Assembly: GCA_035527835.1 (NCBI GenBank)
Contig: DATKZS010000149.1
Coordinates: 1 to 5,933 of the forward strand
Length of the DNA: 5,933 nt
From: DATKZS01 sp035527835 [NCBI: bacterium]
GTDB lineage: Bacteria > RBG-13-61-14
Reading direction: 5' to 3'
A program made the position numbers and the translations under genes. Shown here piece by piece: positions 2,153-5,933 of this stretch; the first letter of the stretch is position 1; each line of letters starts with the position of its first letter. The notes beneath the pieces were generated by a model. It saw nothing but the letters and a program-made list of their open reading frames with translations. It had not been told where the DNA came from and ran no database searches.

Positions 2153-2166
2153 CAAAGGAGTGAATC

Positions 2167-3318
2167 ATGGCTGAAAGGGTCGCGATTGTGGGCTACGCTC
2201 AATCCCGGCACCAGTTCGACATGCAGATGACGCGTGAGGACATGGTGTTCGAGGTGTGCAAGGCCGCGCTCAGACACGCGGGCATTCTCCGGGAGGAGGT
2301 AGACACGGTGGTGACCGCGTCCACCGACTATTTGGACGGCCGCACCATCTCCAACGTGTTCCTGAGCATGGCGGTGGGCGCGTACTTGAAGGACGAGTCC
2401 AAGGTCGAGGAGGACGGGTCGTTCGCGGCGCTCTACGCGATGATGCGGATCATGTCGGGCGCGCACGAGGTGGCGGTGGTGGAGGCCCACACCCAGGCCT
2501 CGACCTTTAACCCGCACCAGGTGAGCTTCTACACCCTGGACCCGCTCTTTGACCGGCAGGTCGGCGTGATGAACGACGTGGCCGCGGCAGCGATCCAGGC
2601 CCGCATGTACATGGACCGGTTCGGGGCCACCGAGGAGGACCTGGCGATGGTGTCGGTCAAGAACCTGGGCAACGCCGCCTATAACCCCAACGCGCAGCGC
2701 AAGATGGCCGGCCTGTCCGTGGACGAGGTGATGGCGTCAAAGCTCTATTACGATCCGGTGCGCGAGCTGACCATGTCGCCGATCAGCGACGGCGCCTGCG
2801 CGCTGGTGCTGGCAACCGAAAAAAGGGCCCGGCAAATCACGGACCGGCCGGTGTGGATCCAGGGCGTGGGCTTCTGCCATGACGCCTACCTGCGCGACCG
2901 CGATCTCTCCGGGCTCGGCTCGCTTCAGATCGCCGCGGGCAAGGCCTATGACATGGCCGGGATCAAGGAGCCCATGTCCGAGCTCGACTTCGCCGAGGTC
3001 ACCGAGCGCTTCTCGCACGAGGAGCTGATGATCTACGAGGCCCTGGGCCTGTGCGACAAAGGCCGGGGCAAGGCGCTCATTCGATCAGGGGTCACTGACG
3101 CGGGCGGCGAGTTCCCGGTGAACCCGAGCGGGGGCGCGCTGGGGGCCGACCCGGTGTGCGCGACCGGGCTCATCCGGCTGGTGGAAGCGGCCAAGCAGAT
3201 CCGGGGCGAGGCCGACGGTTACCAGATAGAGGACGTGGGCCGAGCCATCGCTCACGGCCAGTTCGGGCTGTGCGCGCAGAAGAACGCCGTGTTTATCCTG
3301 GGAGGTGAGCCATGCTGA
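2167..3318 (+). CDS. Thiolase-like protein 1 (SCP-x/thiolase superfamily), catalytic Cys absent
   Basis: A 383-residue protein of SCP-x-type thiolase length. The fold is shown by the N-terminal VAIVGYAQSRH, the MSGAHEVAVVEAHT strand (about 96-109), SPISDGACALVLA (about 204-216), LDFAEVTERFSHEEL (about 273-287), NPSGGALGADPVCATG (319-334) and a C-terminal AIAHG with H363. True thiolases form an acyl-enzyme on a Cys about 16 residues before the conserved Ser-Gly, here S97-G98; that position is E81, in VEEDG. The histidine of the GHP motif is replaced by D328, and the HDCF-like motif reads TERF (279-282). Automatic annotation would call it acetyl-CoA acetyltransferase, which these changes make doubtful. 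It may be an aldolase-like C-C lyase or a structural subunit acting on an acyl-CoA. AAAGGAG lies six bases before the ATG. Its last seven bases overlap gene 2, so translational coupling is likely. Confidence 0.9.
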   Translation: MAERVAIVGYAQSRHQFDMQMTREDMVFEVCKAALRHAGILREEVDTVVTASTDYLDGRTISNVFLSMAVGAYLKDESKVEEDGSFAALYAMMRIMSGAHEVAVVEAHTQASTFNPHQVSFYTLDPLFDRQVGVMNDVAAAAIQARMYMDRFGATEEDLAMVSVKNLGNAAYNPNAQRKMAGLSVDEVMASKLYYDPVRELTMSPISDGACALVLATEKRARQITDRPVWIQGVGFCHDAYLRDRDLSGLGSLQIAAGKAYDMAGIKEPMSELDFAEVTERFSHEELMIYEALGLCDKGRGKALIRSGVTDAGGEFPVNPSGGALGADPVCATGLIRLVEAAKQIRGEADGYQIEDVGRAIAHGQFGLCAQKNAVFILGGEPC

Positions 3319-4556
3319 ACAATGCCGCGATCATCGGGTGCGGCCAGACCAGGCACTCGAGCAAGCATCGGGAGTGGAACCTGGCGGAGATGGTGGCCGA
3401 GGCCGCGTTCAAGGCCATGGAGGACGCGGAGGTCACGCCGAACGAGGTTGACGCCATCGTGGTCGGGAACATGCAGGGGTTCGGCGGAGTGGCGCAGCCG
3501 GAGATGTGGCTGGGCGACTGGGTCATGGGCGAGCACAAGCCGGTGCTGCGCATCACCACCGGCGGGACCACCGGAGGCTCGGTGGGGCAGGGCGCGTACT
3601 ACTCCGTGGCCTCCGGACTCTACGACACCGTGCTCGCGCTCGCCTGGGAAAAGCACTCGGACAGCAAGGAAGCGGGCGCCACCACCGGACTTTTGCACGT
3701 CGCTCTCGGCAACTTGTTCCACGCCTTTAACTGCGGACTCAGCTTGAAGACCCTGCTCGGCACCACGGCGGTGGGCGCGGCCGCCGGCGTGGCGCTGTAC
3801 CAGGCCAAGTTCTATATGCACCGCTCGGGCTGCCGCATCGAGCACCTGGACATGGTGGCGGCCAAGGCCAGGCGCAATGGGGCCAAGAACCCCTACGCGC
3901 ACCTGCAGATCCCCAACTGCACGCCGGAGGACATCGCGCGGACCGAGATGGTGGCGTACCCCTTCCGCTTCGGCCACATCTGCCCCGCTTCCGACGGGGC
4001 CTCCGCCATCGTGGTGGCATCGGAAAAAACCGCGCGCAAAAAGTGCCGCCAGCCCGCCTGGTTCAAGGGAGTCGCATCCTTCTCCGACGAGGAGAACCAG
4101 ATGCAGAGCGAGAACTACGGAGGCATCGGAGTGCTCGACGCCTCCGAGCAGATGGGCGCCCGCCTCTCCGCCCGGAAGGTCTACAAGCAGGCCGGAATCA
4201 CCGACCCGAAAAAGGAAATAGACCTCGCCGAAATCTACCAGCCCTTCCCCAGCCAGGAGCTCATCTTCGCCGAGAGGCTCGGGCTTTTTGACGAGGGACA
4301 GGCCTGGAAGGGGCTGGAAAAGGGGGAGACCGACATCGCCGGCCGCATCCCCACCGACCTCTCCGGAGGCGTCAACGCCACCAACGCCATCGGCTCCTCC
4401 GCCCTCCAGCGCATCCTCGAATGCGCCCTCCAGATCCAGGGCAAGGCCGGAGAGCACCAGGCCGGAAAAAAGGTCCACAACGCCATTGCCCACGGATGGG
4501 GCGGAGTCACCAACTACGTTACCGTTACCGTGCTGGGCGACCAGCCCAGGGGGTGA
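3312..4556 (+). CDS. Thiolase-like protein 2 (SCP-x/thiolase superfamily), catalytic Cys absent
   Basis: A 414-residue thiolase-fold protein, distinct in sequence from its upstream neighbour. Family landmarks are AAIIGCGQTRHS at the N-terminus, VASGLYDTVLALAWEKHSD (about 99-117), ICPASDGASAIVVASE (about 223-238), IDLAEIYQPFPSQEL (303-317), DLSGGVNATNAIGSS (349-363) and AIAHGWGG (391-398, H394) near the end. The nucleophilic-Cys position, judged by distance to S101-G102, is G85 in the glycine/threonine-rich TTGGTTGG. The GHP histidine is N358, and the HDCF-like motif reads YQPF (309-312). The C-terminal AHGWGG resembles the variant ending of SCP-x/Ltp-type proteins. Y309 is near the active site by motif position and could act in aldolase-like chemistry, but this is speculation. 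The gene starts inside the end of gene 1 with GGAGGTGA at 3301-3308 as ribosome binding site. It probably forms a hetero-oligomer with gene 1 and the DUF35 proteins. Confidence 0.9.
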   Translation: MLNNAAIIGCGQTRHSSKHREWNLAEMVAEAAFKAMEDAEVTPNEVDAIVVGNMQGFGGVAQPEMWLGDWVMGEHKPVLRITTGGTTGGSVGQGAYYSVASGLYDTVLALAWEKHSDSKEAGATTGLLHVALGNLFHAFNCGLSLKTLLGTTAVGAAAGVALYQAKFYMHRSGCRIEHLDMVAAKARRNGAKNPYAHLQIPNCTPEDIARTEMVAYPFRFGHICPASDGASAIVVASEKTARKKCRQPAWFKGVASFSDEENQMQSENYGGIGVLDASEQMGARLSARKVYKQAGITDPKKEIDLAEIYQPFPSQELIFAERLGLFDEGQAWKGLEKGETDIAGRIPTDLSGGVNATNAIGSSALQRILECALQIQGKAGEHQAGKKVHNAIAHGWGGVTNYVTVTVLGDQPRG

Positions 4557-4560
4557 GATC

Positions 4561-5070
4561 ATGAGCGACGGGAAAAAGAAAACTATCGAGACCATGGCCG
4601 TGGAAGGCGACTGGAACGTGGGCGCTTACCAGTTCAAGGCCCCCACGCTCCTGCCCGAGTTCGCGGCCGGGCTGAAGGAAGGAAAACTGATCGGCACGCT
4701 GTGCCGCGGCTGCGGCAAGGTGATCGTGCCGCCGCGCAACATCTGCGGCCGCTGCCACCGCCGCATGGAAGACCGGATCGTGGTCAGCGACAAGGGCACC
4801 ATCTCCGTGTTCGTGATGAGCGAGCCGGTGCAGAAGGACAAGTTCAAGTTGTTCGGCATGGACCCCATTGACATGGGCCTGCTCAAGGAAGGAGAGGTCA
4901 TCATGCCGGTGTTCGTGCGCTTCGACGGCTCCGACTCGAACGTGCACACCGTGCTGATCAACGCGGACCCGAAAGAGGTGCGCGTGGGCATGAGGGTCAA
5001 GGCCGTGTTCGCCAAGGAGCGCAAGGGCGCCTTGAGCGACCTGGAAGGCGTCGAGCCGCTCGAGGAATGA
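4561..5070 (+). CDS. DUF35 zinc-ribbon/OB-fold protein 1
   Basis: A 169-residue DUF35 protein. The usual layout is visible: an N-terminal helical lead (about 28-45, LLPEFAAGLKEGKLIGT), a zinc ribbon with C48-x2-C51 and C62-x2-C65 around the typical VPPRNICGRC, and an OB-fold (about 72-169, starting near SDKGTISVFV). DUF35 proteins partner thiolase-fold enzymes. Known cases are BbsA with the thiolase BbsB in anaerobic toluene degradation, the archaeal thiolase/HMG-CoA synthase complex, and the DUF35 part of ChsH2 with aldolase Ltp2. A role as the partner of one of the upstream thiolase-like proteins is therefore inferred. The frame is open upstream to an ATG at 4288, but that lies inside gene 2. 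The ATG at 4561 is preferred, four bases after gene 2's stop and with AGGGGGTGAG just ahead. Its stop overlaps an ATG at 5067. Confidence 0.92.
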   Translation: MSDGKKKTIETMAVEGDWNVGAYQFKAPTLLPEFAAGLKEGKLIGTLCRGCGKVIVPPRNICGRCHRRMEDRIVVSDKGTISVFVMSEPVQKDKFKLFGMDPIDMGLLKEGEVIMPVFVRFDGSDSNVHTVLINADPKEVRVGMRVKAVFAKERKGALSDLEGVEPLEE

Positions 5071-5081
5071 GGAGACAAGCC

Positions 5082-5549
5082 ATGGATAACATTTCCGAGA
5101 TCGTCAGGGTGCAAAGCATACCGTACACGGTAGGGTTCAACTGGTCGGTGGGCATTCCCATGGAGAAGTTCATCAAGGCGCTGGCCGACAAGAAAATCCT
5201 GGCCTCTAAATGCCCCGGCTGCGGCTATGTGTACACGCCGCCTCGGAACCGCTGCGGCAAGTGCGGCAAGGAAATCGGGACCGCCGACATCATCGAGCTC
5301 TCCGGACAGGCCACTCTCGCCGGCTATACCACCGCCCGGGTCGAGCTCGACGGCGCCGGCAACTGGAAGGACCTGGAAGCGCCGAAGATCATCGGCGCGA
5401 TCAAGCTCGAAGGCGCGGACTCCACCATCTTCATGCCTCTCGAGGGCGTCGCCGCCAAAGCCCTCAAACCGGGCCTCAAACTCAAGCCCGGATGGAGCGA
5501 AAAGACCGAGGGGAAAATCTCCGACCTCAAGTGCTTCAAGCCGGCGTAA
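5082..5549 (+). CDS. DUF35 zinc-ribbon/OB-fold protein 2
   Basis: A 155-residue second DUF35 protein. It has a helical lead (about 27-41, MEKFIKALADKKILA), a zinc ribbon with C44-x2-C47 and C58-x2-C61 (KCPGCGYVYTPPRNRCGKC), and an OB-fold from about 69 onward, ending ISDLKCFKP as is usual for the family. It differs from DUF35 protein 1 over most of its length, so it looks like an old duplicate or a separately recruited partner rather than a recent copy. I place the start at 5082, where AGGAG at 5070-5074 is seven bases upstream. An in-frame ATG at 5067 overlaps the previous stop as ATGA and would add five residues, but its only Shine-Dalgarno-like stretch abuts it. With two thiolase-like and two DUF35 genes in a row, each DUF35 may pair with one thiolase-like subunit. 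No clear terminator follows the stop. Confidence 0.92.
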   Translation: MDNISEIVRVQSIPYTVGFNWSVGIPMEKFIKALADKKILASKCPGCGYVYTPPRNRCGKCGKEIGTADIIELSGQATLAGYTTARVELDGAGNWKDLEAPKIIGAIKLEGADSTIFMPLEGVAAKALKPGLKLKPGWSEKTEGKISDLKCFKPA

Positions 5550-5806: not shown

Positions 5807-5933
5807 TGGTCCGATCCAGGTACATAGGTAACACAATGAACCAGGCACATGGGTTACACTCTCGGCATGATCAAGACAGGAGGTTTTGTCATGCCGTGGA
5901 AGGAGACATGTGCCATGGAAGAAAGAGTCAAGT
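5807..5933 (+). mobile_element. Left end of an insertion sequence, cut by the window edge
   Basis: A 19-base direct repeat, 5816-5834 and 5841-5859, agrees at 16 positions (CCAGGTACATAGGTAACAC against CCAGGCACATGGGTTACAC), at a 25-base period. It sits just ahead of a transposase start. Such repeated end motifs with GTACATxGGTxACAC-like words are, as I recall, typical of IS481-like/integrase-core elements and would be transposase-binding sites. The outer boundary near 5807 is approximate, because no target duplication can be checked without the right end. Confidence 0.6.
5891..5933 (+). CDS. Transposase N-terminus (IS481-like integrase family), partial
   Basis: Only the first 14 codons are present, reading MPWKETCAMEERVK, before the window ends. 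AGGAGG at 5878-5883, seven bases before the ATG, is a strong ribosome binding site. The MPWKETC-x-M-[DE]-E-R opening is, from memory, the usual start of a group of helix-turn-helix/DDE integrase-core transposases of the IS481/IS3-like type, in which the N-terminal HTH binds the element ends. The direct repeats just upstream agree with this. Whether the gene is intact cannot be judged here. Confidence 0.65.
   Translation, partial: MPWKETCAMEERVK

Follow-up and report, generated by a model that had tools for sequence, protein, structure and literature searches.

The 5,933-nucleotide stretch at positions 1 to 5,933 of contig DATKZS010000149.1 (assembly GCA_035527835.1), referred to below as the window, carries on its forward strand four closely packed genes for two thiolase-fold proteins followed by two DUF35 proteins. 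In the tree described below, the first, THA (2167-3318, 383 amino acids), sides with Ltp4 and the second, THB (3312-4556, 414 amino acids), with Ltp3; neither has the thiolase catalytic residues, and both match the Pfam models Thiolase_N and Thiolase_C_1. DUF35-A (4561-5070, 169 amino acids) and DUF35-B (5082-5549, 155 amino acids) each combine a zinc ribbon (C48, C51, C62 and C65 in the former; C44, C47, C58 and C61 in the latter) with an OB fold, matching zf-ChsH2 over its cut-off and OB_ChsH2_C just under the curated one. THA and THB overlap by 7 bases (3312-3318), gaps of 4 (4557-4560) and 11 bases (5071-5081) separate the remaining genes, and direct reading of the sequence places a Shine-Dalgarno-like AAAGGAG 5' of THA (2154-2160, forward strand). 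Order, overlap and gaps are as described in a first-pass annotation of the window, which had taken the genes as one coupled unit and as a candidate for an undescribed carbon-carbon bond-cleaving or -forming complex, and the Pfam matches agree with its domain assignments.

A scan of genome contigs with THA recovered 15 relatives at 65-79% identity, titled Dehalococcoidia or Dehalococcoidales (8), delta-/Proteobacteria (5) and archaeal (2), and whole-genome searches added seven loci of the same tier (tier 1, about 690 bits or more) together with a more distant tier 2 (437-457 bits). The 22 close relatives come from Dehalococcoidia, proteobacteria-like bins and archaea, with 47-85% identity per subunit. 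Presence counts are lower bounds, as the top 4-8 candidates were scored in most genomes and groups were sampled: tier 1 occurs in at least 10 of 343 genomes in Dehalococcoidia (the class of G007), at least 3 of 3 in the phylum of G003, at least 1 of 28 in the phylum of G014, at least 2 of 227 in the phylum of G015 (which includes the Jordarchaeia bin L021) and at least 4 of 395 in the phylum of G004, the same four being found again among 297; tier 2 occurs in at least 1 of the 343 and at least 26 of the 227, and 11 of these 27 were examined. All four genes are present in 20 of the 23 tier-1 loci, window included, the other three (L014, L015 and L017) stopping at a contig edge within the block; every close relative not cut by a contig end (19/19) has the complete block. 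All ten examined archaeal-phylum loci of tier 2, like L020, L021 and L081, show a cyclic permutation of the gene order to DUF35-B, THA, THB, DUF35-A; the four genes of L082 are arranged differently, and a Cupriavidus plasmid (L001) carries a looser set with 38, 35, 27 and 30-32% identity. Subunit distances correlate over 18 tier-1 loci (r 0.69-0.93 for the six pairs), and for no pair did any of 2000 permutations reach the observed value. Conservation across phyla rules out chance neighbours: the four genes are a real conserved block, most likely encoding one enzyme complex. Scattering of the genes in other genomes, which the first-pass annotation had named as evidence against a coupled unit, was seen neither in the 19 close relatives with a complete block nor in the ten examined distant archaeal-phylum loci. 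Viral contigs gave two pattern matches, neither of them a relative.

Alignment with four ordinary thiolases as reference, all of which keep the three catalytic positions, shows each position to be lost in both thiolase-fold subunits. The nucleophile-Cys column holds Gly (G84 in THA, G85 in THB) with no thiolase Cys in the column, in line with the earlier reading that neither protein has the Cys. The HDCF Cys is replaced by R281 in THA (Arg or Lys in tier 1) and by Pro in THB (P311), and the GGH His by D328 in THA (Asp in tier 1) and N358 in THB, the Asn being found in 29 of 29 THB rows and in 4 of 4 Ltp3-like rows. E81, D83, G84 and D328 are invariant among the 16 tier-1 rows of THA. The motif at the HDCF position reads YQPF in THB and TERF in THA, and the YDHF or YDCY motif of Ltp2 and Sal is not encountered; Tyr309 of THB occupies the HDCF-His column, where Tyr is present in all 29 THB rows of tiers 1 and 2 and in all four Ltp3-like rows, and where the THA rows of tier 1 carry Ser or Thr. 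In the steroid aldolases Ltp2 and CtSal, Tyr294 and Tyr302 within the HDCF-equivalent motif are reported as essential, and in CtSal Gly replaces the nucleophile (PMC12329534). THA-like rows of other sets (L008, L080 and L082) have Tyr in the Tyr column and keep the GGH-column His, so the working subunit may differ between lineages. Thiolase identity, of the SCP2 or BbsB type, was rejected, as neither subunit keeps any of the three catalytic positions; judged by these residues the block is not a thiolase, and judged by kinship it is more likely an acyl-CoA carbon-carbon lyase.

This kinship lies with the Ltp3/Ltp4 pair. The best NCBIfam model for THB is PRK08313 (445 bits, below the cut-off of 514), and THA reaches 209-248 bits with five thiolase-domain families, all far below cut-off (248 versus 516 for PRK06066, 209 versus 419 for PRK07937). 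In a tree of 64 rows, several long branches of which are unsure according to a program warning, 27 rows form the side of THA (support 99/97), among them the actinobacterial Ltp4-like rows, the THA-like rows from other sets and one row from Cupriavidus. THB falls with Ltp3-like rows in a group of 30, whose support (89/95) stays below the level that the program stars. The actinobacterial labels were assigned from gene order rather than from accessions of the studied proteins. Two haloarchaeal pairs (L002 and L095) have first subunits that sit beside thiolases (86/83), apart from THA, and the nearest relative of the window is L009, from a metagenome assembly titled Deltaproteobacteria bacterium RBG_13_61_14. 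In both systems the two thiolase-fold paralogues lack the Cys and are split between the same sides of the tree; the Ltp3-like rows have the YxPF and Asn of THB, and the Ltp4-like rows the VExD stretch of THA. Furthermore, in the actinobacterial plasmid records L003, L004 and L006 a protein with two DUF35 units precedes the two thiolase-domain proteins, providing the precedent for a doubled DUF35 set that the first-pass annotation had thought missing. In these fused proteins (L003 3925-4944, L004 5996-6925, L006 4083-4982) the N-terminal DUF35 copy lacks the CxxC pairs in 3 of 3, and the C-terminal one has both pairs in two and only the first in L004, whereas the block has separate genes with both ribbons intact (CxxC-CxxC kept in 29/29 DUF35-A and 28/28 DUF35-B). 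The actinobacterial sets also differ in gene order and in their aerobic sterol context, whereas the block is found in presumably anaerobic bacteria and archaea, with a BKACE or CoA-transferase neighbour in one class. The L004 set adjoins a crotonase, an AMP-binding protein and an F420-dependent oxidoreductase, an arrangement similar to that of Rv3515c-Rv3523 in a table of PMC6429209, from which the names Rv3520c-Rv3523 are taken; we infer that L004 corresponds to this region and that Rv3521 carries a pair of DUF35 domains. Published accounts give Ltp3/Ltp4 as a heteromeric aldol-lyase acting on sterol side chains branched at C24 (PMC6678751), known from genetics and with a proposed reaction (PMC6678751, PMC6273163, PMC4761994). 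Overall, the block is most likely a split form of the Ltp3-Ltp4 kind and not a categorically new system. Of the undescribed carbon-carbon bond complex suggested initially, the non-thiolase character stands, with a lyase more likely by kinship, and a doubled set without precedent is not supported, given the sister pair Ltp3/Ltp4.

A second line of evidence comes from genes next to the block, labelled by Pfam scans of 40 chosen flanking proteins and otherwise by BLAST to a small reference set. In 9 of the 23 tier-1 loci the block has a same-strand neighbour, no more than about 110 bp away, that encodes a beta-keto acid cleavage enzyme (BKACE, PF05853); it lies downstream in L012, L018, L077, L078 and L079 and upstream in L013, L014, L015 and L080. 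Identity between the downstream and upstream groups is 34-38%, which makes two or more origins of the link probable. In L007, L008 and L011 the A and B subunits of a 3-oxoacid CoA-transferase, an enzyme that takes a free 3-oxo acid, lie 36 bp downstream of the block instead; both L007 subunits score over the curated cut-offs, and the L008 and L011 copies are 87-96% identical to them. A BKACE search of these three genomes found none, an absence that is weak in such small assemblies. L007 and L077, each other's closest kin in the tree, have a common downstream acyl-CoA dehydrogenase (89%), yet the former has the CoA-transferase and the latter BKACE, and one or other neighbour is found beside the block in 12 of 12 Dehalococcoidia loci. 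BKACE is present in 12 of the first 15 block genomes versus 1 of 14 control genomes, and in those 15, five adjacent BKACE genes were seen versus 0.019 expected at one gene per 1000 bases, relatives not being independent. Looser associations are seen in L020 (5.5 kb off, other strand) and in 3 of 10 tier-2 loci (L084, L085 and L090, about 1.2-1.8 kb off). BKACE converts a beta-keto acid and acetyl-CoA to an acyl-CoA and acetoacetate (PMC11961710, PMC10470551). The substrate class common to BKACE and the CoA-transferase hints at a free beta-keto acid as the compound that the complex makes, or uses. Neither such a four-gene block nor its BKACE/CoA-transferase association was found in the titles and abstracts searched, a coverage outside which most subscription journals fall. 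Other features of the neighbourhood include acyl-CoA dehydrogenases and CoA ligases near several blocks; two different four-gene sets that adjoin in L080 (334-8237) with BKACE between them; an HpaB-family protein upstream of the block in L077 (2195-3664), of a superfamily that also includes 4-hydroxybutyryl-CoA dehydratase; and, 3-8 kb from the block in L012 (2187-6872), a BadF/BcrA-type ATPase, a CoA-enzyme activase with an HgdD match and a succinyl-CoA-ligase-like protein.

Together, we tentatively favour, at somewhat less than even confidence, a model where the block encodes a hetero-oligomeric retro-aldolase of the Ltp3-Ltp4 kind that yields an acyl-CoA and a free beta-keto acid. THA and THB would form a thiolase-fold heterodimer with each subunit capped by its own DUF35 protein. 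THB would be the likely catalytic subunit, in which Tyr309, at the position of Tyr294 in Ltp2 and Tyr302 in CtSal, would deprotonate the beta-hydroxyl, probably tertiary, of an acyl-CoA such that the alpha-beta carbon bond breaks without a Cys acyl-enzyme, and THA would serve as structural or substrate-binding partner. The substrate would be a 3-hydroxy-3-(carboxymethyl)acyl-CoA or similar. Besides an acyl-CoA, the most likely product would be a free beta-keto acid, comparable to the acetoacetate made by 3-hydroxy-3-methylglutaryl-CoA (HMG-CoA) lyase; the keto acid would then be returned to CoA by BKACE or the 3-oxoacid CoA-transferase. In the published Ltp3-Ltp4 proposal, C28 carboxylation, hydration and aldol cleavage likewise leave a free carboxylate, whose thioesterification 'should be mandatory' (PMC6678751), and the chemistry would make that carboxylate a beta-keto acid. 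It is this fit, together with the substrate class that BKACE and the CoA-transferase share, that leads us to propose an HMG-CoA-lyase-like retro-aldolase. Complex formation, division of labour, reaction, direction and substrate are parts of the model that we infer, as is the same reaction outside Dehalococcoidia, including in the window.

Several observations weigh against this model. All 12 adjacent cases are confined to one class, Dehalococcoidia, and neither BKACE nor CoA-transferase lies beside the block in 11 of the 23 tier-1 loci, the window and L009 among them, flanks being short in the window (384 bases of DNA 3' of the block) and on one or both sides in L016, L017, L019 and L102. No carboxylase able to make the carboxymethyl branch was recognised among the 40 flanking proteins scanned. 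THB has Pro where CtSal has its second catalytic residue, Cys304, and its structure model is poor (pLDDT 42) and was excluded from fold comparison. Single deletion of ltp3 or ltp4 in Mycolicibacterium neoaurum is reported to leave 4-HBC formation from phytosterols in place (PMC10398937), which fits badly with an indispensable Ltp3-Ltp4 role there. Finally, BKACE and CoA-transferase occur together around acetoacetate in phloroglucinol clusters (PMC10470551), so the link could concern acetoacetate instead of what the block itself produces. Among NCBIfam models, the L012 BKACE comes nearest to the 3,5-dioxohexanoate enzyme (361 bits, below the cut-off of 430); a phloroglucinol-type pathway was not adopted, as it requires a thiolase and the block has no Cys.

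The acetoacetate link is central to the strongest alternative, which we regard as clearly less probable though not negligible: a retro-aldolase of the same kind that releases a plain ketone or aldehyde together with acetyl- or propionyl-CoA, with BKACE and CoA-transferase serving neighbouring acetoacetate metabolism, as their co-occurrence elsewhere would allow (PMC10470551). Ltp2 and Sal, which have THB's Tyr position, release a ketone or aldehyde (PMC12329534, PMC6678751), and of the four acyl-CoA dehydrogenases scanned near the blocks two score best with a pimC large-subunit model, far below cut-off. What speaks against a ketone or aldehyde product is that in Dehalococcoidia BKACE and CoA-transferase replace each other beside the block, their common substrate being a free beta-keto acid. 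It is improbable, in our estimate, that the block works in the synthetic direction as a condensing enzyme that joins, with no Cys involved, the enolate of an acyl-CoA to a keto acid or ketone, even if DUF35 proteins also partner archaeal thiolase/HMG-CoA synthase and PhlABC (PMC12329534). The AlphaFold2 model of THA (pLDDT 66.6, pTM 0.75; both structure models were built on alignments of 16 and 14 close rows, too shallow) gave 50 listed matches among solved structures, all thiolase-type folds by title (Z 24-32), with 7yvy, 6esq/6et9 and PhlC-type acylases highest among the matches listed, by small Z differences. Archaeal thiolase/HMG-CoA synthase and PhlABC use a Cys that is lost in the block, however, and the near genes (acyl-CoA dehydrogenase, CoA ligase and BKACE) look catabolic. 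Ordinary thiolysis of a 3-ketoacyl-CoA via an unusual nucleophile is very improbable: fold and family matches to thiolases speak for it, but the three catalytic positions, kept in 4 of 4 reference thiolases, are lost in the tier-1 and tier-2 rows of both subunits.

Compared with better known thiolase-fold/DUF35 systems, the block resembles the steroid aldolases Ltp2-ChsH2 and CtSal-CtShy (6ok1, 9myr) in its thiolase fold without nucleophile (Gly in CtSal), the Tyr in the HDCF-His column and the DUF35 partner, but these have a single kind of thiolase-fold subunit, as a dimer, and a single kind of DUF35, attached to a hydratase, with YDHF or YDCY in place of the YQPF of THB. The benzoylsuccinyl-CoA thiolase BbsA-BbsB and the PhlABC acylase are likewise thiolase-fold/DUF35 complexes, but have a single DUF35 kind and, unlike the block, keep the catalytic Cys.

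Returning to the retro-aldolase with a free beta-keto acid product, it is possible but doubtful that the block represents a new class, namely a cofactor- and Cys-independent, four-subunit, HMG-CoA-lyase-like aldolase that converts carboxymethyl-branched acyl-CoAs to free beta-keto acids and is coupled to BKACE or a replacing CoA-transferase. If so, it would point to an undescribed branched-acid degradation route in uncultured Dehalococcoidia and archaea, and BKACE would provide a model for re-thioesterification after Ltp3-Ltp4, a step postulated with no enzyme assigned to it. From the swap between BKACE and CoA-transferase a free beta-keto acid is predicted as product, and the swap also hints at such a branched-acid route. 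The compact, strongly conserved four-gene version in uncultured bacteria and archaea would offer a tractable system in which to study a thiolase-fold aldolase that is hetero-oligomeric and includes two DUF35 proteins.

Upstream of the block, the window encodes a TPR protein (252-1316, from Pfam) and, directly after it, a metallo-beta-lactamase-fold protein (1318-1983; best NCBIfam score 102 versus a cut-off of 240). No CoA ligase, dehydrogenase or hydratase was recognised in the window, as the first-pass annotation had also observed. A promoter scan found none, and a terminator scan gave 4 candidates versus 3.6 in shuffles. Between the block and a presumed insertion element, the segment 5606-5799 contains two inverted-repeat pairs, with arms of 23 and 24 nt that are 96% and 88% complementary, as well as a 25-nt direct repeat. 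The open frame at 5891-5933, which starts MPWKETCAMEERVK and runs past the window end, resembles what we take to be the start of an IS481-type transposase.

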